A stretch of 64,000 nt of DNA, taken from NCBI RefSeq assembly GCF_003030465.1, contig NZ_CP028339.1, forward strand, positions 1,302,001-1,366,000, read 5' to 3'. The position numbers and the translations under genes are program-made. Positions within the stretch are counted from its first letter, which is position 1; each line of letters opens with the position of its first letter. Positions 26,159 through 35,558 of the stretch are shown here, one piece after another. The notes beneath the pieces are model-generated. The model ran no database searches. It had not been told where the DNA came from and saw nothing but the letters and a program-made list of their open reading frames with translations. This stretch comes from Thauera aromatica K172. Its GTDB lineage: Bacteria > Pseudomonadota > Gammaproteobacteria > Burkholderiales > Rhodocyclaceae.

Positions 26159-26186
26159 TTGACGTTTACGTCAGCGTCAATATCAT
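26159..26186 (+). promoter_or_regulatory. Promoter and operator of the MerR-family gene
   Basis: TTGACG (26159-26164) and TATCAT (26181-26186) form a promoter with a 16-base spacer. The operator fills it: TGACGT-TT-ACGTCA (26160-26173) is a perfect inverted repeat, and the wider element 26159-26180 begins TTGACG and ends CGTCAA. The reverse complement of 32264-32285, in the rnf/nfu promoter, matches 26159-26180 at 20 of 22 positions. Confidence 0.72.
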
Positions 26187-26322: not shown

Positions 26323-26796
26323 ATGATGATGACCAGCACGACCCAGGGCGTTGTGCGCCCGAGGGAGTCGGCGCGAGCCACGACCTACACGATTTCGGAT
26401 CTCGCCGATGAATTCAACATCACCACGCGGGCGATCCGGTATTACGAAGACCAGGGCTTGATCATGCCTGCGCGGCGCGGCAGCCGACGCATCTACAGCC
26501 GTCGCGACCGCGCCCGGCTGAGCCTGATCCTGCGTGGGAAGCGCCTCGGATTCTCGCTCAACGAAACCCGTCAGCTGTTCGAACTTTATGACAACGGTCC
26601 GGGCGAGGACGCCCATACGGCCCACTTCATGGGGCTGCTCGCCGAGCGCCGGGCGCTGCTCGAGCAGCAGATGCGGGACATCCGCGCGATCCTGCGCGAA
26701 ATCGACATCGCCGAGGCTGACGCACTGCGGGTCAAGGCGGCCAGGCAGAGCGAGGCCGCACCACCTTCGCCCGCTTCTCCGGCTCCGGTGGGCTGA
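26323..26796 (+). CDS. MerR-family transcriptional regulator (LiuR-like)
   Basis: 157 residues from the first of three tandem ATG codons (26323, 26326, 26329; the true start among them is undecided; GGAG is at 26315). The MerR winged-helix domain is in residues 20-90 (YTISDLADEFNITTRAIRYYEDQGLIMPARRGSRRIYSRRDRARL), followed by a coiled-coil dimerisation helix. No effector cysteines of the metal or redox type are seen. It resembles the LiuR group. Its own promoter and the rnf/nfu promoter share a 22-bp element, so I infer it regulates both. Confidence 0.85.
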   Translation: MMMTSTTQGVVRPRESARATTYTISDLADEFNITTRAIRYYEDQGLIMPARRGSRRIYSRRDRARLSLILRGKRLGFSLNETRQLFELYDNGPGEDAHTAHFMGLLAERRALLEQQMRDIRAILREIDIAEADALRVKAARQSEAAPPSPASPAPVG

Positions 26797-26843: not shown

Positions 26844-27146
26844 TCAGCTTTCCTCGGCAGAGGGTGCGGAGGCGGTCTTGGCGGCGCTTTTCTTGCGCGT
26901 CGGCACGGTCTTCGGGTCGACGATGATGGGCATGTAGATCTCGACCCGGTCGCCTTCCTTGAGCACGGTGTCGAGGGGGTGGATCTTGCCGAACACCCCC
27001 ACTTTGTTGCGTCCGAGGTCGATGCACGGATAGCGCCCGAGAATGCCGGAGCGCTCGATCGCCTCCGCGATCGTGCACCCTTCGGCCACCTCCAGGCGCA
27101 GCCACGCCGGACGTTCGGGATGGGCGTAGCTGACACTGATCTTCAT
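26844..27146 (-). CDS. rnfH: RnfH family protein
   Basis: 100 residues with a ubiquitin-like beta-grasp fold (UPF0125/RnfH): MKISVSYAHPERPAWLRLEVAEGCTIAEAIERSGIL, CIDLGRNKVGVFGKIHPLDTVLKEGDRVEIYMPI. The last 25 residues are a Lys/Ala/Ser-rich tail. RnfH is usually encoded with rnf operons but its function is not settled. Last gene of the leftward rnf operon, 26 bases after rnfE. Confidence 0.9.
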   Translation of the reverse strand: MKISVSYAHPERPAWLRLEVAEGCTIAEAIERSGILGRYPCIDLGRNKVGVFGKIHPLDTVLKEGDRVEIYMPIIVDPKTVPTRKKSAAKTASAPSAEES

Positions 27147-27172
27147 GGGTCGCTCCTTCTGATGTTGAACGC

Positions 27173-27853
27173 TCAGGACGCCGCAGCTGCGGCCGAGGCG
27201 GCGAGTCTGCTGGCGCGCTGGCGGGCCTGGATCGTCAGGCGCTGGCGCCAGGCCACCAGGAAGCCGAGCACGAGGAAGCCGCCCGGCGGGAGAATCATCA
27301 GCAGCATCCCTCGGTAGGATTCGGCAACCTTCATTTCCAGGAAAGCGAAGCTTTCTCCGAGCAGCATTGACGCGTCGGCGAACAGGGTGCCCTGGCCGAT
27401 CACTTCCCGGATCCCGCCCAGAGCCATGAGCGCGAGCGTAAAGCCGACTCCCATCGCCAGTCCGTCGAGGCCTGCTTTCAGAGGGGAATTCTTGGAAGCA
27501 AAAGCTTCGGCGCGGCCGATGATCGCGCAGTTCACCACGATCAGCGGAATGAACAGGCCGAGCACCTTGTGCAGTTCGTGCAGCCAGGCGTTCATGCTCA
27601 TGTCGACGAGAGTGACGATCGAAGAGATCAGCAGCACGTAGATCGGAATCCGCACTTCCTTGACGATGAAATGGCGCAGCAGCGATACGGCGATGCCGGA
27701 GCTGATCAATACGGCGGTCGTGGCCAGGCCCATTCCGAGGCCGTTGGTGGCGCTGACGCTGACCGCCATGGTCGGGCACATGCCGAGCATCTGCACGAGG
27801 ACGACGTTGTTGTCCCAGATGCCGTCGCGGGTGATCCGGCGCAGTTCACTCAT
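27173..27853 (-). CDS. rnfE: Electron transport complex subunit RnfE
   Basis: 226 residues, six membrane helices, homologous to RnfA and NqrD. Conserved [32 protein letters not shown] and IPLIVVNCAIIGRAEAFASKN contain the half-membrane cysteines (MCP, NCA) that hold the intramembrane iron-sulfur centre between RnfA and RnfE in this family. Its start overlaps rnfG by 8 bases. Alanine-rich tail. Confidence 0.95.
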   Translation of the reverse strand: MSELRRITRDGIWDNNVVLVQMLGMCPTMAVSVSATNGLGMGLATTAVLISSGIAVSLLRHFIVKEVRIPIYVLLISSIVTLVDMSMNAWLHELHKVLGLFIPLIVVNCAIIGRAEAFASKNSPLKAGLDGLAMGVGFTLALMALGGIREVIGQGTLFADASMLLGESFAFLEMKVAESYRGMLLMILPPGGFLVLGFLVAWRQRLTIQARQRASRLAASAAAAAS

Positions 27854-28532
27854 GCTTGTCTTCCTTGCGATGGCCGTCCGCCGGCTCCGCGGCCGCCCGT
27901 TCTGCCGCAGTGACGGTGGCGAGTAGGCGGCTGCGGTGTGCGGCGAAGAATTCCAGGGATGCTTTCACCGCCCCGACGACGGCGCGGGGGGTGATCGTCG
28001 CCCCGGCGAACTGGTCGAAATCGCCCCCGTCCTTGCGCACCGCCCATTGCTGCGGAGCAGCCGGGTCGAGCCAGCGGCCTTCGAAGCTGCGGATCCAGTT
28101 CGACTTGCGGATGTCGATCTTGTCGCCCAGCCCGGGGGTTTCGCTGTGCGACAGGATGCGCACGCCGATGATCCGCCCTTCGCTGGAAATGCCGACGATC
28201 AGCGAAATCGGGCCGCCGTAGCCGGCCTCGGTGGTCCAGTTGTATGCGACCGCGGTCACTTCGGTGCCGCGGAGGGCGCGATAGATGGTAGTGGACGTAC
28301 CGTCGGGGCGCTCGAGCTGCATCGTGTTGGCGAGCAGATCATTGTCGTGCAGCTCGGGCGGCAGTGCCTGTACCAGCGATGTACGCAGGTCTTCCGCCTC
28401 GCGCAACGCGATTTCGCCGCGGGTGAGGCTGTGCCCGTACGCGAGCAGCGCGCTGCAGATGAGCGCGTATGCGCCGAGCAGGGGGCCGGGGCGGCGCGCC
28501 TTTGGGGCGGCCGGGCTTGCGGTGGTCGTCAT
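27846..28532 (-). CDS. rnfG: Electron transport complex subunit RnfG
   Basis: 228 residues. One N-terminal membrane anchor (PLLGAYALICSALLAYGHS, 18-36) and a periplasmic FMN domain. The FMN is attached to the threonine of the S/AGATIT motif (FAGATITPRAVVGAVKASLEFF, about residue 175). Other conserved parts: GYGGPISLIVGISSEGRIIGVRILSHSETPGLGDKI. Its start overlaps the rnfD stop by one base. Confidence 0.94.
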   Translation of the reverse strand: MTTTASPAAPKARRPGPLLGAYALICSALLAYGHSLTRGEIALREAEDLRTSLVQALPPELHDNDLLANTMQLERPDGTSTTIYRALRGTEVTAVAYNWTTEAGYGGPISLIVGISSEGRIIGVRILSHSETPGLGDKIDIRKSNWIRSFEGRWLDPAAPQQWAVRKDGGDFDQFAGATITPRAVVGAVKASLEFFAAHRSRLLATVTAAERAAAEPADGHRKEDKHE

Positions 28533-29611
28533 CAGGAGTTCTCCGTGCGCTTGGCGGGCAGGGGGAGCGGGGCGCCGGAGCGCTTGCGGCCATAGCGGCG
28601 CGGGCGGACGAGATAGTCGATCAGCGGCGTGGCCGCATTCATCAGCAGCACGGCGAATGCCACGCCTTCCGGGTAGCCGCCCCAGGTGCGGATGATGAAG
28701 ATGAGGATGCCGATGCCGGCCCCGAAGATCAGCCGGCCGCTGGCGGTGACCGGAGAACCGACCGGATCGGTGGCGATGAAGAAGGCGCACAGCACTGCAC
28801 TGCCGGCCAGCAGATGGAGCAGCGGGGGGGCGTAGCGCGCGGGCTCGATGAGGTTGAAGACGGTGGCGAGCAGGCCCAGCGTCAATAGCATGGCGAGCGG
28901 GATTTGCCACGGGATGATGCGCTTGAAGATCAGCCAGAGGCCACCGAGCAGCAGCAGCAGGGCGGACGTCTCGCCCATGCTGCCGGCGACCGTCCCGAGC
29001 GCGAGCGCGCCGAGGGAGTCGGCGTCGGCGGCGAAGGTGCCGCCGGTGCGCAGCGGGGCGAGTGCGGTGGCGGCGCTCACCGCATCGGGCACGGGTTGGG
29101 TACCGAAAGTGATCGCCAGGCCTTCAAGAAAACCGGGGGCGGTGGCTGACAGCCATGGGTGGGGCGCGATCCAGCTCGTCATCTCGAGCGGGAAGGACAC
29201 CAGCAGGGCGACGCGGGCGAGCATCGCCGGGTTCAACACGTTCTGGCCGAGGCCGCCATACACCTGCTTGCCGATGGTGATCGCGAACGCCCCGCCGAGT
29301 ACCGCGATCCACCACGGCGCCCAAGGCGGCAGGCAGAGGGCGAGGATCAGTCCGGTCAGCACGGCGGAGCCATCGCTCAGTGCGGACGCTGGCGGCCGCC
29401 GGGCGATCGCCAGGCAGGCGGCTTCGGCCGCCAGGCAGGACGCGATCGACAGCACGAGCAGGTTCATCGCCGGCCAGCCGAACAGGTACAGGCCGAAGGC
29501 CGTCGCCGGAAGCAGGGCGAAGATCACCGTGCGCATCGTCTGCGGGATGTTGCCCCGGCTATGGACGTGCGGAGCACCCAGCGGACGGGAGCTTGTGGGC
29601 TGCGAATTCAT
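28532..29611 (-). CDS. rnfD: Electron transport complex subunit RnfD
   Basis: 359 residues from the ATG at 29611 (MNSQPTSSRPLGAPHVHSRGNIPQTM), which overlaps the rnfC stop by 4 bases. Multi-helix membrane protein with covalent FMN, homologous to NqrB. Seen: FGWPAMNLLVLSIASCLAAEAACL, KQVYGGLGQNVLNPAM, the FMN threonine context DAVSAATALAPLR, and late helices with ATDPVGSPVTASGRLIFG and WGGYPEGVAFAVLLMNAATPLID. The length is typical. Confidence 0.94.
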   Translation of the reverse strand: MNSQPTSSRPLGAPHVHSRGNIPQTMRTVIFALLPATAFGLYLFGWPAMNLLVLSIASCLAAEAACLAIARRPPASALSDGSAVLTGLILALCLPPWAPWWIAVLGGAFAITIGKQVYGGLGQNVLNPAMLARVALLVSFPLEMTSWIAPHPWLSATAPGFLEGLAITFGTQPVPDAVSAATALAPLRTGGTFAADADSLGALALGTVAGSMGETSALLLLLGGLWLIFKRIIPWQIPLAMLLTLGLLATVFNLIEPARYAPPLLHLLAGSAVLCAFFIATDPVGSPVTASGRLIFGAGIGILIFIIRTWGGYPEGVAFAVLLMNAATPLIDYLVRPRRYGRKRSGAPLPLPAKRTENS

Positions 29612-31044
29612 TGCTCGGTCTCGGAAGTGACGGACTTGCGCGCGGCCGCCTTCGCCGCGGCCTGGGCGGCGAGACGCTGCTGGCGGGCTTCGGCGAGCTT
29701 GCGGGTTTCCTCCGCCTTGCGCTGAGCCTCGCGGCGGTTGGTGATCTCGCCCTTGGCGAAGTTGAACAAATGGGCGAGCGGGATATGGGCCGGGCAGACG
29801 TAGGAGCAGCAGCCACAGGACAGGCAATCGCTCATCCCCAGGTCGGCGGCGTCGTCGATGCGCCCGGCGCGGATGCGGGCGGCCAGATCGAGCGGCACCA
29901 GCCCGACCGGGCAGACGTCCACGCAGCGCCCGCAATGCAGGCAGGCGCGCTGCGAGGCCTCGTGCGCCTCGGCCGCGGTCAGGGCGATGATGCCGCTGGT
30001 GCCCTTGACGACCGGAACGTCGAGCGCGGGGAGGATCTGGCCCATCATCGGGCCGCCCATCAGGATGCGGGTTGGCTGTTCGGTGAAGCCGCCGCAGAAA
30101 TCGATCAGGTCGGACACCGGAGTGCCCATCGGCACGACGATGTTGCGCGGCTGGCGGATCGCACCGCCGCCGACAGTGACCACTCGCGACACCAGCGGCT
30201 TGGCAAAGCGCAGCGCGCGGCAGACGGCCAGTGCGGTACCGACGTTATGCACGCTGACGCCGATTTCGGCCGACAGCCGGCCCGCCGGAATCTCGAGGCC
30301 GGTAACGGTGCGCACTAGCTGCTTTTCCGAACCCATCGGATAGCGCGAAGGCACGCGCAGCACCTTGATTTCGGGATGAGGGGCCGCGGCCGCGCTCATC
30401 GCCGCGAGCGCCTCGGGCTTGTTGTCCTCGATCGCGATGCAGGTGAGCCGGGTGCCCAGCCCCCGTGCGATCAGGCGTACGCCCTCGATGACGAAGCCCG
30501 CGCCTTCGCGCATCAGGCGGTCGTCGCAGCTCAGGTAAGGCTCGCACTCGCCGCCGTTGATGATCAGCGTGTGGATGTCGTGGCGGGTGCCGGCGTCGAG
30601 CTTGACTGCGGCGGGGAAGGCCGCGCCGCCCAGTCCGACGATGCCCGCGTCGCGCACGCGGACGGCGATTTCGGCCGGCGACAGGGCGAACGGGTCGGCC
30701 ACCGGGTCGGTGTCGATCCAGCGCTCCTCGCCGTCGGGCTCGAGAGTGATCGTCTGCACCGGCAGGCCGGACGGGTGGGGCGCGGTGTGATCCCCGATCG
30801 CCACCACCGTGCCCGAAGTCGGAGCGTGGACCGGCGCCGACACCGAGCCCTGGTGGCGGGCAAGGCGCTGGCCCTTGAGCACGCGCTCGCCCACGTTCAC
30901 TTCGGGCGCGGCGGGTTCGCCGATGTGCTGCTGCAGCGGGATGAACAGCTGTTTCGGCAGCGGCAGGCGCGCGATCGGGTGGCAGGCGGTAGGGTCCTTG
31001 TTGCCCTCTGGGTGAACCCCGCCGCGGAAACGGAAGATTTTCAT
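29608..31044 (-). CDS. rnfC: Electron transport complex subunit RnfC
   Basis: 478 residues. NADH/FMN-binding subunit homologous to NqrF/Nqo1: FRGGVHPEGNKDPTACHPI, GIVGLGGAAFPAAVKL, INGGECEPYLSCDDRLM. Two [4Fe-4S] motifs lie at about 370-425 (CLHCGRCVDVCPVG and CLSCGCCSYVCPAHIP). It is the short form of RnfC; the long alanine-rich C-terminal extension of E. coli RsxC is missing apart from a 45-residue Ala/Lys tail. Peripheral, cytoplasmic side of the complex. Confidence 0.95.
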   Translation of the reverse strand: MKIFRFRGGVHPEGNKDPTACHPIARLPLPKQLFIPLQQHIGEPAAPEVNVGERVLKGQRLARHQGSVSAPVHAPTSGTVVAIGDHTAPHPSGLPVQTITLEPDGEERWIDTDPVADPFALSPAEIAVRVRDAGIVGLGGAAFPAAVKLDAGTRHDIHTLIINGGECEPYLSCDDRLMREGAGFVIEGVRLIARGLGTRLTCIAIEDNKPEALAAMSAAAAPHPEIKVLRVPSRYPMGSEKQLVRTVTGLEIPAGRLSAEIGVSVHNVGTALAVCRALRFAKPLVSRVVTVGGGAIRQPRNIVVPMGTPVSDLIDFCGGFTEQPTRILMGGPMMGQILPALDVPVVKGTSGIIALTAAEAHEASQRACLHCGRCVDVCPVGLVPLDLAARIRAGRIDDAADLGMSDCLSCGCCSYVCPAHIPLAHLFNFAKGEITNRREAQRKAEETRKLAEARQQRLAAQAAAKAAARKSVTSETEQ

Positions 31045-31055
31045 CTACGGCACCC

Positions 31056-31589
31056 TTACACGCCGGTGAATTCAGGTTTGTGCCAGCGCCAGTTGCGCAG
31101 CGTCACCGGAATGCCTTCGATGTCGATGCCCTCGGTCGGGCAGACTTCGGCACAGGCGCCGCAGCCGATACAGGCTTCGGTGAGGACCACGTGGAGTTGC
31201 TTGGTGGCGCCGAGGATGGCGTCGGTCGGGCAGGCCTTGATGCAGCGCGAACAGCCGATGCAACTGGTCGAGCGCACTCGCGCCAGCACCGGGCCGCGGT
31301 CTTCGATGCTGCCCGCGTCGAGGCCGACGCCGAGGATTTCGGCGAGTTTTTCCGCCACCGCGCGCCCGCCCGGCGGGCACAGGGTGACCGGCGCCTCGCC
31401 GGCGGCGAGTGCGGCGGCGGCCTGGCCGCAGCCGGCGAAGCCGCACTGCCCGCACTGCGAGCCGGGCAGCGTCTCGGCGATGCGTTCGACGATCGGGTCG
31501 GCTTCGCTGCCGAGCCAGCGCCCTGCGGTGCCCAGCAGCCAGCCCAGTACCATGCCGATGGCGGCGACGACAAGAACGGACGTGATCAT
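31056..31589 (-). CDS. rnfB: Electron transport complex subunit RnfB
   Basis: 177 residues from the ATG at 31589 (MITSVLVVAAIGMVLGWLLG, a membrane anchor). Iron-sulfur entry point for ferredoxin electrons. The first cluster motif GSQCGQCGFAGCGQAA with a later CPPGG is the RnfB four-cysteine domain; two bacterial ferredoxin motifs follow, CIGCSRCIKACP and CIGCGACAEVCP (about 105-150). It ends with a short basic tail rather than extra ferredoxin repeats. Confidence 0.95.
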   Translation of the reverse strand: MITSVLVVAAIGMVLGWLLGTAGRWLGSEADPIVERIAETLPGSQCGQCGFAGCGQAAAALAAGEAPVTLCPPGGRAVAEKLAEILGVGLDAGSIEDRGPVLARVRSTSCIGCSRCIKACPTDAILGATKQLHVVLTEACIGCGACAEVCPTEGIDIEGIPVTLRNWRWHKPEFTGV

Positions 31590-31627
31590 GATCGTGGTCC
31601 TCCTGAAAGAATGAAGCGAATCCGGAT

Positions 31628-32209
31628 TCAGCGGGTGGGCAGGCCGGCGAAGCCCATGAAGGCGAGCGACAGCAGGCCGGCGGTGATGAGGGCGATGGGG
31701 GCGCCGACGAACGCGGATGGAACGTTGGCCAGGGCGATGCGCTCGCGCACTCCGGCGAAGAGCAGGATAGCCAGGGTGAAGCCGACGCCCGTGCCCGTGC
31801 CGTACAGCAGGCTCTGGACGAAGCTGTTGCCCTGTTGCGCGTTGAGCAGGGCGATGCCGAGCACCGCGCAGTTGGTGGTGATCAGCGGCAGGTAGATGCC
31901 CAGGGTGTGGTGCAGCACCGGGCTCGCCTTCTGGATCGCCATTTCGGTGAATTGCACGACCGCGGCGATGACCAGGATGTAGGTCATGATGCGCAGATAC
32001 ATCATGTCGAGCGGGCCCAGCAGGGCGTGTTCGACCGCCCAGGTCGCGCCCGAGGTCAGGGTGAGCACGAAGGTCGTCGCCAGTCCCATGCCGAGTGCGG
32101 TGTCGAGCTTGTTGGAAACGCCCAGGAACGGACACAGGCCAAGAAAGCGAACAAGGATCACGTTGTTCACCAGGGCGGTGCCGAGCAGGAGCAGCAGATA
32201 TTCCTTCAT
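31628..32209 (-). CDS. rnfA: Electron transport complex subunit RnfA
   Basis: 193 residues, six hydrophobic helices. Conserved [37 protein letters not shown] and [17 protein letters not shown] provide the intramembrane cysteines shared with RnfE. First gene of the leftward rnfABCDGEH operon. In denitrifying and nitrogen-fixing relatives, Rnf couples NADH and ferredoxin redox state to the membrane ion gradient, mostly to supply low-potential electrons. SD AAGGAATAT is weak; the upstream promoter is shared with the nfu gene. Confidence 0.95.
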
Positions 32210-32256: not shown

Positions 32257-32292
32257 ATGGTAATTGACGTTGACGTAAACGACAACTAATAT
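32257..32292. promoter_or_regulatory. Interleaved divergent rnf / nfu promoters around a shared operator
   Basis: Rightward: TTGACG (32264-32269), 17 bases, TAATAT (32287-32292). Leftward: TTGTCG (32285-32280), 17 bases, TACCAT (32262-32257). The two promoters interlock over the same 22 bp (32264-32285), whose reverse complement matches the element 26159-26180 in front of the MerR gene at 20 of 22 positions. A protein bound here would affect both directions at once. Confidence 0.75.
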
Positions 32293-32421: not shown

Positions 32422-33024
32422 ATGCCGAACGTTACTGCCGTCGTTCCCACGCCCAACCCGCTGGCGAACAAGTTCATGATCGATGCGCCCATGTTCAGCG
32501 GCGCGCCTCGCCATTTCGCCTCTCCGAAGCACGCCATGGGTGACGCTCTGGGCGAGAGCCTGCTCGGCGTTCCCGGCGTCACCGAGGCCTACTGCACCGC
32601 GGAATTCATCACCGTGACCCGCCACCATGCGACCGACTGGGACATGATCGAGTCGCGGGTGATCGAGTGCATCGAGACCTACAAGCCGAAGCGCGTGATC
32701 GGCATCGCCCGCGAAGACGGCGCCCCGGCCGCCGCTGCCGCGCCTGCCGCTGCGCCGGCGGAAGAGGCGGCGCCGATCGAGGTTGAAACCGACGACCCCG
32801 AGATGCTGATGCGGGTCAACATGATCCTCGACGAGAACATCCGCCCGTTCCTCGACAAGGACGGCGGTGGCATCGACGTCCTGCGCCTGCAGGATTTCAC
32901 CCTGACGGTGCGCTACAAGGGCGCCTGCGGCGGCTGTCCTTCGGCGGTGACCGGGACATTGTTCGCGATCAGCAACCTGCTGCAGAACTACGTCGATGAC
33001 CGCCTCCAGGTGGTGCTCGACTAG
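32422..33024 (+). CDS. NifU-family iron-sulfur carrier protein (Nfu type)
   Basis: 200 residues. Residues 10-92 match the N-terminal scaffold domain of Nfu proteins (NKFMIDAPMFSGAPRHFASPKHAMGDALGESLLGVPGV). After an Ala/Pro-rich linker (about 95-120), the C-terminal NifU domain (122-198) carries DKDGGGIDVLRL and the cluster-binding CGGC in GACGGCPSAVTG. Such proteins deliver [4Fe-4S] clusters to target enzymes. It is divergent from rnfABCDGEH with a shared operator, so it may serve the many Fe-S sites of Rnf. SD CGGAGGAG precedes the ATG. Confidence 0.87.
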   Translation: MPNVTAVVPTPNPLANKFMIDAPMFSGAPRHFASPKHAMGDALGESLLGVPGVTEAYCTAEFITVTRHHATDWDMIESRVIECIETYKPKRVIGIAREDGAPAAAAAPAAAPAEEAAPIEVETDDPEMLMRVNMILDENIRPFLDKDGGGIDVLRLQDFTLTVRYKGACGGCPSAVTGTLFAISNLLQNYVDDRLQVVLD

Positions 33025-33135: not shown

Positions 33136-35454
33136 TCAGCCGCCGGCGAGCGCCGGCACCAGGCTCACGTTGCTGCCGTTATGCACGGCCTCGGCGGCTT
33201 CACCGGACAGTACCATCCGGCCGTCGAGGGCCACGTTCAGACTGCGGTCGTGGAGGCTTTCCGCATCCCGACCGAGGCGCCTGGCCAGTGCCGTGCGCAG
33301 CTCGGCGACGTTTTCCACCGGCTCGTCGAGCACCATCGTGCGCGTCGGGCTGCCGGGGAGCGCCACCCGGACGGCGAAACCGGTCGCCACCCGGGCCAGG
33401 TGCTCGTGCCACTCCGGTTTCGGGATGCCTTGGTCGTCGAGGCCGGTGACTTCGTAGAAGCGCGCCTTGAGCGCCTCGAATTCGTTGCGGTCGATCTTTT
33501 CCCCCTTGAACGGGCCGACCTGGATCGGCTCCTCGAACCAGCGCCGCGGCAGGGTGTCGTCGCTCGCGCGCAGGCCGAGGCGGTAGTTCATCAGGCGCTC
33601 GATGCCGATGATGTTGCGCCCGCATTCCTCGAGCTCGGCTACGCTCATGTCGAGGCCGACGAGCTCGTTGAGCTGGCGGCGGAAATCCTCCAGATCGGGC
33701 AGGCTGGGCGAGTTGAACAGCTTGGTGTTGAACCGGCACATGCCGATCGAGTCACCGACGGCGAAGGTGTTCTCGCACCGGCGCACGGCGTATTCCTTGC
33801 CGATGTAGCTGTTCGGCTCGGCGGCGACGAAGCCGCCGTAGAGCGCGGTCTTGAACTCGGGGTCGTCGTTGACGCGGGCGTTGATCTCGAGGGTGACGCG
33901 GTTGCGCAGGTGGTCCATGCCGCGGGTGGCGACCGCCAGCCCGAGGGCGAACGCCTTCAGGATGCGGGCGTCGTGGGGGTCGGACTGGAACAGGCCCTTC
34001 ACCGACATCCGGTAGTCGAGCGCGGCGGGCGGATACTTGCCGTTCTCGACCGCGCGCGCGTCGTCGGCGATGACGTCGCCGAAGCCTTGGCGGCGCGAAG
34101 TCATGAACAGCAGCTGCTCGATCACCGGGTAGTTGCCCCAGCTCAGGTCGAGGCCGCCGGTGTCCTCCGCGGTGAGGATGCCGCGCTGGAACAGCTCCAT
34201 CGCCCAGCCGATAGCGCCGCCGGCGCTCGCCGAATCCATCCCGAGGTCGTTGAGGATGTTGTTCAGGCGCAGCACCTGCTCGGGTTCGCGGATGCCCAGG
34301 TTGGGGCCGAACTTGCCGACGGTGACGTACTCGGGGCCGTCGCCGTGGTCGTACTTGTCGAACTTGCCGTCGCCGCGGATGCCCTTGTAGGTCTTTTCGC
34401 GGTGGTGCTCGACTTCGGCCTGGGCCTTGTCGTAGCTGGCGTTGCCGGTCAGGCCCTTGAGCGCGCTCGCGCCCCAGCCGCCCTTGCCTTCGGGAGTGAG
34501 GTCGTTCATCGCGCGGCACTGCACCGGGCACAGGTAGCAGCCGTCCATGCCGGGACGGTAGGGGTCGAAGTTGTCGGCGTCCAGGGTTTCGTGCCAGGTG
34601 GTTTCCTGGTTGTTCTTGGTGCCGATCGCCCCCAGCGCGCGGCTGGGCTTGTACAGGAAGGGGGTGCCGACCTTCTTCAGCGCGTTCTGGATCACGCTGG
34701 TGGCGAGGATCTTCTGGCCGATGGCCTTGCCGCCGAGCTTGAAGTCCTTCGAGGTCGGGATCTGGCGCCCCTTGCCGCGCACCAGGATCGCTTTCAGCTG
34801 GAGCGAGCCCATCTTCGCGCCGCCGCCGCCGCGCGCCCAGATCGCCTTCGGCCCGCCCATGATGCCGGCCGACAGGACGAGGTTTTCACCGGCGCGGGTG
34901 ATCCGCGCCATCGCCAGGTCTTCCCGTTCCTTGAGGCCGAGGTCGCGTTCGATGGCGGTGGTGAAATCGATGTTGTCCATCCCGACATAGGGCGCGGCGT
35001 CGCGGAAGGACACCGTGTCGCCATCGATCTCGAGCATCGTCCACTGCGCGCTGCGGCCGTAGATCACCAGGTGGTCGTAGCCGTTGCGCTTGAGGAAGGC
35101 GGGGAAGTAGTCGCCGCCGCTGGCGTCGAGGATGGCGTGGCTGTCGGGCGAGCAGCTGGTGAAGTTGCCGCGGGTGGCCGAGGGCAGGGTGGTGGTCATG
35201 ATGCCGACGCCGAAGACCAGCGGCACTTCGGGCTCGAGCGGCTGGCGGCCGTCCTCGAACAGGTTGTACAGCAGCATCATGTTGGCGCCACGGCCGCCGA
35301 GGAAGGTGCGCACGATTTCCATCGGCAGGTAGGCGCTGCGCAGCGTGCGCTGCTCGAGGTCGACGAACAGCACCTTGCCCTGGCCGGGGTACTGCGGGGT
35401 CGCTTCCATGCGCGCGAGCAGGCGCTCAACCCGATTCCTGATATCTGTCTTCAT
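33136..35454 (-). CDS. Tungsten aldehyde:ferredoxin oxidoreductase with C-terminal MoaD-like domain
   Basis: 772 residues from the ATG at 35454 (MKTDIRNRVERLLARMEA), with GGAG 6 bases ahead; upstream frame is non-homologous. AOR family: oxidises aldehydes to acids with a tungstopterin and a [4Fe-4S] cluster. Seen: TFLGGRGANMMLLYNLFEDG and GVGIMTTTLPSATRGNFTSCSPDS (N-terminal pterin domain), ARGGGGAKMGSLQLKAILV, cluster ligands C306, C309, C313 (CYLCPVQC) and C573 (GDSIGMCRF). Residues about 693-772 add a beta-grasp domain (FAVRVALPGSPTRTMVL ... VALDGRMVL ... NVSLVPALAGG) ending in Gly-Gly, as in MoaD/ThiS. This makes it about 150 residues longer than archaeal AOR. No partner AorA or AorC gene is adjacent. 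Substrate unknown; aryl aldehydes fit the context. Confidence 0.88.
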   Translation of the reverse strand: MKTDIRNRVERLLARMEATPQYPGQGKVLFVDLEQRTLRSAYLPMEIVRTFLGGRGANMMLLYNLFEDGRQPLEPEVPLVFGVGIMTTTLPSATRGNFTSCSPDSHAILDASGGDYFPAFLKRNGYDHLVIYGRSAQWTMLEIDGDTVSFRDAAPYVGMDNIDFTTAIERDLGLKEREDLAMARITRAGENLVLSAGIMGGPKAIWARGGGGAKMGSLQLKAILVRGKGRQIPTSKDFKLGGKAIGQKILATSVIQNALKKVGTPFLYKPSRALGAIGTKNNQETTWHETLDADNFDPYRPGMDGCYLCPVQCRAMNDLTPEGKGGWGASALKGLTGNASYDKAQAEVEHHREKTYKGIRGDGKFDKYDHGDGPEYVTVGKFGPNLGIREPEQVLRLNNILNDLGMDSASAGGAIGWAMELFQRGILTAEDTGGLDLSWGNYPVIEQLLFMTSRRQGFGDVIADDARAVENGKYPPAALDYRMSVKGLFQSDPHDARILKAFALGLAVATRGMDHLRNRVTLEINARVNDDPEFKTALYGGFVAAEPNSYIGKEYAVRRCENTFAVGDSIGMCRFNTKLFNSPSLPDLEDFRRQLNELVGLDMSVAELEECGRNIIGIERLMNYRLGLRASDDTLPRRWFEEPIQVGPFKGEKIDRNEFEALKARFYEVTGLDDQGIPKPEWHEHLARVATGFAVRVALPGSPTRTMVLDEPVENVAELRTALARRLGRDAESLHDRSLNVALDGRMVLSGEAAEAVHNGSNVSLVPALAGG

Positions 35455-35508
35455 GCTCATCTCCGGGAAATGTCCGCCTTCGGGGGCCGATGGATCGAGT
35501 ATCGGAGC

Positions 35509-35558
35509 TGACTTTTTTGAAGTCAAACTGTTGGAGATCAAACATTGACAAATATCAA
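35509..35558 (-). promoter_or_regulatory. FNR-type box and second inverted repeat upstream of aor
   Basis: TTGAC-AAAT-ATCAA (35545-35558) matches the FNR/ANR/DNR consensus TTGAT-N4-ATCAA at nine of ten fixed positions. Its centre is about 98 bases upstream of the aor start. TGACTT-N5-AAGTCA (35509-35525), between the box and aor, is a second symmetric site near where the transcription start should be. The box suggests induction without oxygen, and that aor has its own promoter apart from the U32 genes upstream. Confidence 0.68.

Follow-up and report, generated by a model that had tools for sequence, protein, structure and literature searches.

The 22-bp element found before a merR gene and again between rnfA and nfu in Thauera aromatica K172 is probably the operator of a LiuR-type MerR regulator which, as genome comparison suggests, has been redirected to anaerobic benzoyl-CoA metabolism and to the ferredoxin partners of this pathway. 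On comparative grounds we regard the element as a real, conserved operator; the regulon appears to be new and the type of regulator known. The window, i.e. the whole stretch of 64,000 nucleotides that was analyzed (contig NZ_CP028339.1, positions 1,302,001 to 1,366,000), contains two copies, both read directly from it: operator A (TTGACGTTTACGTCAGCGTCAA, 26159-26180), located in the merR promoter, and operator B (TTGACGTTGACGTAAACGACAA, 32264-32285), common to two face-to-face promoters. The reverse complement of operator B matches operator A at 20 of 22 positions (two differences), which confirms the positions and match count given in an earlier, sequence-only reading of this DNA. The opposite orientation to which that reading drew attention stands insofar as the 20/22 match is to the reverse complement, but says little because the element is near-palindromic and the two copies also agree at 18 of 22 positions in the same orientation.

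A consensus of the sites matches the window twice at three or fewer mismatches, versus 0.00 times in 100 shuffles of the window. The complete genome (3.71 Mb) was searched using patterns with mismatches. A pattern derived from operators A and B alone occurs at four places at three or fewer mismatches, and the reversed control pattern at none. Two of the four lie outside the window at C1:1375758 and C1:1375880; this pair, 122 bp apart and 41 kb beyond the rnf site, lies between the divergent genes korA, read leftward, and had, read rightward, and so between korAB and had-oah-dch-bcrCB. The genome-wide search, which the earlier reading had itself proposed, is what brought these sites to light. 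A looser pattern added one further place with three mismatches (C1:2951188). The site scores given here derive from a weight matrix built from 10 sites, several of which were then scored by it, so that those scores are not independent. Every one of the 29 genomes of the genus holds at least one operator-type match somewhere, and in the 22 genomes without the merR clade defined below such sites adjoin other genes; the bcr/rnf regulon is, therefore, marked not by the mere presence of such sites but by where they lie and by the genes beside them.

The merR gene (26323-26796, plus strand) encodes a LiuR-like regulator of the MerR superfamily, as indicated by Pfam models MerR_1 and MerR-DNA-bind (PF13411, 55.4 bits; PF09278, 57.6 bits; both above their gathering scores) and by its place in a phylogenetic tree. 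It is conserved from about 26386, and its start codon is uncertain. The promoter consists of TTGACG (26159-26164), a 16-bp spacer, and TATCAT (26181-26186). Operator A, supported by the genome pattern, the shuffles, and an alignment of seven genomes, contains the invariant stretch TTGACGTTTACGT. A site is present upstream of merR in all seven testable genomes (the G266 sequence is cut), with scores of 17.9 to 35.8; that of G258 is weak at 17.9, versus 34.8 in T. aromatica K172 (G000 in the comparison). Identity as a metal sensor or as SoxR was rejected since the protein fails the NCBIfam equivalog cut-offs for MerR, ZntR, CueR, CadR/PbrR, and SoxR (bits/cut-off: MerR, 57.3/150.85; CueR, 52.5/147.4; ZntR, 50.9/167.95; SoxR, 28.6/116.9). 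Its best sequence match among solved structures is CueR. In the compared part of the alignment, inspected by eye, seven of the eight clade sequences are free of cysteine and that of G033 possesses one.

Identity with the best relatives in the family is mostly 46-58%, with a few at 40%. The name LiuR is in part presumptive, the proteins compared being genomic relatives of the regulator. Across the family, 133 of 249 genomes hold a relative at E 1e-10, of which, besides the genome itself, only those of G048 (76%) and G033 (71%) are close; an order-wide search of 399 genomes at E 1e-40 returned two besides its own (57 and 53%), and a search of genome contigs three distant loci (55, 53, and 43%). 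Within the genus exactly one LiuR-type gene is found in 27 of 29 genomes at E 1e-10, and none at that threshold in G257 (68% complete) and G267. Seven of these genes (G000, G250, G258, G261, G048, G266, and G253) show 70-100% identity and constitute the merR clade; the remaining 20 genomes carry an ordinary LiuR-type gene at 52-57%. In the tree the close merR proteins and that of G033 form one group (support 100/100), the branch of which, at 1.16 changes per column, calls for long-branch caution at the base of the clade.

The rnf operon (26844-32209, minus strand), convergent with merR, comprises rnfA, B, C, D, G, E, and H in order of transcription; rnfA, rnfC, and rnfH were assigned by family models and the other four by order and sequence. 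Its first gene, rnfA (31628-32209, minus; NCBIfam RsxA/RnfA), faces away from nfu (32422-33024, plus), the gene for an Fe-S carrier with Nfu_N and NifU domains (Pfam). Between them both of the interlocked promoters described in the sequence-only reading are present with 17-bp spacers: a rightward nfu promoter (32264-32292, plus) with TTGACG at 32264-32269 and TAATAT at 32287-32292, and a leftward rnf promoter (32257-32285, minus) with TTGTCG at 32285-32280 and TACCAT at 32262-32257. The operator is retained in all six testable genomes with the same gene order, in agreement with what that reading would have predicted. In these six, 21 of the 22 columns of operator B are invariant, versus 38 of 165 in the flanks (10/47 and 28/118). 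The rightward -10 box reads TAATAT, TAATAT, TAGTAT, TAGAAT, TAGTAT, and TAGTAT, and the leftward one TACCAT, TATCAT, TAACAT, TAAGAT, TACCAT, and TACCAT; each thus keeps TAnnAT in 6/6 genomes, the degenerate middle varying while the other positions stay. G261 and G253 are nearly identical across this gap, and G266, the contig of which ends in rnfA, falls outside the count. In G033 no rnf stands beside nfu, which is preceded by a weaker site (20.1). Judged by eye, no other non-coding block in the alignments is as well conserved as the rnf and kor/had sites.

The genes at the second pair of operators were identified as had (TIGR03201), oah (TIGR03200), bcrB (TIGR02260), and bcrC (TIGR02263), and the kor genes as a 2-oxoacid:acceptor oxidoreductase (TIGR03710 and TIGR02177), all above the curated NCBIfam cut-offs; the dch position holds an enoyl-CoA hydratase (PF00378). 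The bcr promoter region contains an operator in eight of eight testable genomes, as expected for a regulator of anaerobic benzoyl-CoA metabolism. The first kor/had operator scores 32.2-35.8 in these genomes, and a second of at least 20 lies 116-124 bp away in seven of them and 245 bp away in G266. An FNR-like box (TTGACN4GTCAA) is centered 22 bp, or two helical turns, downstream of the first operator in 8/8 genomes, and a hexamer xTTAAx follows 27 bp after the center of the box, again in 8/8. The spacing of box and hexamer fits the geometry of an FNR-type activator at about -41.5, with the box ~41 bp before the likely start of transcription. The upstream operator is then at about -63, a position where repressors do not classically bind, and this weighs against repression at bcr; the second operator is near the start of had, downstream of the likely transcription start. 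A conserved leftward korA promoter at the operator was looked for by eye in the alignments and not found. In G006, the BcrC of which is 64% identical, no operator scoring at least 22 occurs in 15 kb around bcr.

A second gene at which box and operator are combined encodes a large molybdopterin oxidoreductase (PF00384), which we take to be padB. Both elements precede it in six of six genomes examined there. The operator is weak in G000 (19.6), G250 (14.9), and G253 (19.6), and strong in G258 (28.1), G048 (28.8), and G033 (32.4). These operator-like sites, strong in three relatives and weak in K172, lie together with the FNR-like boxes between the molybdopterin oxidoreductase gene and a CBS/ACT-domain gene (L005, 5388-5409; L143, 5701; L146, 2996; L157, 13639). 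Within the window a further FNR-like box, TTGACAAATATCAA (35545-35558), lies ~90 bp upstream of an aldehyde ferredoxin oxidoreductase gene (33136-35457, minus), the product of which carries a C-terminal ThiS-like domain (PF02597, 24.6 bits).

The genes in question also occur together. The seven merR-clade genomes among the 29 hold, in addition, the Thauera-type bcr genes and the dedicated Rnf (in part in one genome each), and six of them the Nfu. BcrC at 92-100% identity is found in six genomes, the contig of the seventh, G261, breaking off after had, oah, dch, and the first part of bcrC; the dedicated rnfA (88-100%) is likewise found in six, with a partial copy in G266; and nfu is found in six, all with merR clade and bcr, and not in G266, a 77% complete genome. 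In the other 22 genomes, searches for BcrC (E 1e-30) and Nfu (E 1e-12) came back empty, and any rnfA is at most 64% identical. G033, which lies outside the genus, has merR (71%), bcrC (91%), and nfu (57%). A different rnfA (61-64%) is present in 28 of the 29 genomes, G266 holding a fragment (59%), and no operator scoring at least 16 was found at 23 loci of this other rnf (80.7 kb). The Rnf under operator B is thus an additional copy. Since related genera are likewise reported to possess two rnf clusters in one genome (PMC2907700), a second Rnf is not special in itself. In a tree of the other rnf, six of the seven genomes with the package (G266 left out) fall in two places on a weak backbone, and the package perhaps arose or moved two or three times, including G033; as its genomes belong to about two lineages, the genome counts overstate independence. 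G250 contains, besides the Thauera-type protein, a second BcrC relative of 34% identity (G250:C1:3688706-3689812; L098).

The 20 ordinary LiuR-type genes provide the comparison by which the operator may be assigned to its regulator. A strong palindrome of operator type (consensus TTTACGTTKACGTMAACGTAAA) directly adjoins the gene in 20/20 cases (loci L072-L091), in each instance downstream, and precedes a PaaI-like thioesterase gene in the 19 loci where that gene is visible. Upstream of the ordinary genes no site scoring at least 15 was found (0/20); self-control is, therefore, not a feature of the relatives. The operators of the merR clade are of the same TTKACGT-type palindrome as all 20, a type which we take to be the LiuR operator consensus. 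At position 3, G accounts for 19 of 32 letters in the bcr-type sites (both strands of 16 sites picked by hand for the clade consensus) and T for 32 of 40 in the ordinary set. The protein stretch ITPRAIRFYEDQGL of the ordinary relatives and ITTRAIRYYEDQGL of the merR clade are nearly identical. In G103, G169, and G249 further sites precede genes for a B12-binding/MeaB fusion (IcmF-like), an SDR dehydrogenase, and a PaaI-like (4HBT) protein. Such targets fit LiuR, a MerR-family protein that is described in two papers as repressing the utilization of branched-chain amino acids (PMC3223726; PMC5343134).

Traces of this older regulon are visible within the clade. No operator was found at branched-chain amino acid or acyl-CoA genes in G000. 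In five relatives (G258, G048, G253, G261, and G266), where searches revealed no ordinary LiuR gene, an operator still precedes both the PaaI-like gene (27.5-27.9) and the SDR gene (26.0-27.0); the regulon there is, therefore, not purely anaerobic. The SDR-side sites in these bcr genomes are located at L158 4169, L159 349, L160 3782, L161 5574, and L162 4122. G033 has a weaker operator (22.6) at its SDR gene. No PaaI relative was found at E 1e-30 in G033, G000, or G250, and the only SDR relative (57%) of the latter two is without a site scoring at least 15. The pattern suggests that a LiuR regulon was taken over and subsequently narrowed in the lineage of T. aromatica K172. A strong operator-type site also adjoins a U32-peptidase gene in G048 (PF01136) and G253 (L147, 3484-3505; L163, 418-439).

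We propose a single regulon consisting of merR, rnfA/nfu, and, through two operators, korAB/had-oah-dch-bcrCB. It would join the ferredoxin-needing benzoyl-CoA reductase to Kor and the dedicated Rnf, both of which exchange electrons with ferredoxin, and to an Fe-S carrier. The sequence-only reading had one MerR protein controlling itself, rnf, and nfu; the conservation of operator B in six genomes and of the site upstream of merR in seven, one of them weak, gives this strong comparative support, but the claim was too narrow, as the candidate regulon also includes bcr and kor outside the window. At rnf/nfu the ends of the operator are the two -35 boxes, and we infer that a bound dimer would block both promoters. 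Since the operator covers -35 boxes that are followed by ordinary 16-17 bp spacers, repression by blocking RNA polymerase is the most likely mode at rnf/nfu and at merR. A metabolite would relieve it, probably a CoA ester of the aromatic or alicyclic kind; the analogy is with MbdR, the effector of which is 3-methylbenzoyl-CoA (PMC4424350). At bcr the two operators may bracket the promoter and so repress it, or the upstream one may assist an FNR-type activator.

This last alternative can be generalized: the protein might be an activator, either a classical MerR that untwists a long-spacer promoter or a partner of an FNR-type protein. Its membership in the MerR fold family accords with this, as does the fact that at bcr and pad an FNR-like box lies downstream of the operator, which puts the latter where co-activators are typically found. 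We consider it unlikely as a general description nonetheless. MerR activators work at spacers of 19-20 bp, whereas those at rnf/nfu measure 17 bp on both strands in 6/6 genomes and that of merR 16 bp in K172; the second kor/had operator, close to the had start, also lies downstream of the likely start of transcription. Less probable again is an ordinary LiuR serving branched-chain and fatty acyl-CoA breakdown, with the rnf, nfu, and bcr sites minor or accidental. The absence in G000 and G250 of PaaI (E 1e-30) and of a site of at least 15 at their sole SDR relative, the leading place of the rnf and kor/had sites in non-coding conservation as judged by eye, and the long branch of the clade all argue against it, even though protein family and operator type are those of the ordinary relatives and five genomes retain the PaaI-like and SDR sites.

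That a different DNA-binding protein reads the operator, merR being linked to it by chance, might be argued from the ordinary relatives, where the site follows the regulator gene and may belong to the gene after it. We give this slightly less credence still, given that the operator adjoins a LiuR-type gene in 20/20 ordinary cases and lies upstream of merR in 7/7 testable clade cases, that the stretches ITPRAIRFYEDQGL and ITTRAIRYYEDQGL are nearly identical, and that there is one LiuR-type gene per genome. The least probable reading is that the element is conserved only as a carrier of two -35 boxes. TTGACG and TTGTCG do form its ends at rnf/nfu; its invariant center, however, falls in the spacers, and the same type of 22-mer recurs at kor/had, once close to the beginning of had and once 22 bp before the FNR-like box, where it is not a -35.

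A LiuR-type operator serving the benzoyl-CoA pathway thus remains our preferred interpretation, and we consider a fuller version of it about evenly balanced between right and wrong. According to this, the LiuR-type MerR would be the specific regulator so far missing from the Thauera-type benzoyl-CoA reductase pathway. It would sense an aromatic or alicyclic CoA ester, repress its own gene and rnf/nfu through occlusion of their promoters, and act in phase with an FNR-type activator both at bcr and at the neighboring molybdoenzyme operon; ring reduction would thereby be coupled to a dedicated Rnf serving the pool of ferredoxin, in a manner comparable to that of NifA with nitrogenase. Suvorova and Gelfand looked for BzdR/BoxR sites in Thauera sp. 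MZ1T and report none before had-oah-dch-bcrCBAD-fdx (PMC6449761). For the Thauera-type pathway a candidate regulator, exact operators, and a regulon can now be given. Benzoyl-CoA reductase is, moreover, linked in this way to a second, dedicated Rnf and to an Nfu carrier, which makes the delivery of low-potential electrons to the enzyme testable by deletion of one operon, and the whole suggests an acyl-CoA regulator captured by an anaerobic pathway.

The earlier reading knew of no described MerR control of Rnf. A search of open-licence literature by title and the beginning of the abstract is in accord with this, in that MerR control of rnf or bcr is described in none of the matches listed; nor was any paper found there that combines benzoyl-CoA reductase, MerR, and Thauera. 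The regulators BzdR/BoxR, BadR/BadM, BamVW, BgeR, and MbdR control operons of the benzoyl-CoA reductase type together with the global activators AcpR and AadR, and the system proposed here is similar in this respect; in the available parts of the two papers concerned, none of them is called a MerR protein (PMC6449761; PMC4424350). AcpR and AadR are named in the latter as global regulators of anaerobic benzoyl-CoA-type pathways (PMC4424350). With LiuR our regulator presumably shares the protein family, a small one-domain gene, and the near-palindromic TTKACGT-type operator; it differs in its targets (rnf, nfu, kor, and bcr) and in forming a separate clade on a long branch. From the 20 ordinary relatives it is further distinguished by an operator upstream of its own gene and by an outer half-site that prefers TTGACG over TTTACG. 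In E. coli, Rsx/Rnf reduces SoxR, acting on its iron-sulphur cluster. There, as is proposed here, a MerR-family protein and an Rnf complex belong to one circuit, but the merR protein fails the SoxR cut-off and most of the clade is cysteine-free in the compared part. A parallel in logic is NifA, for which candidate sites at rnf are described in nitrogen-fixing Alphaproteobacteria (PMC4999443). Each is a pathway regulator that would enlist rnfABCDGEH for a reductase requiring low-potential electrons and ATP; in the present case these roles fall to a LiuR-type protein and to benzoyl-CoA reductase.
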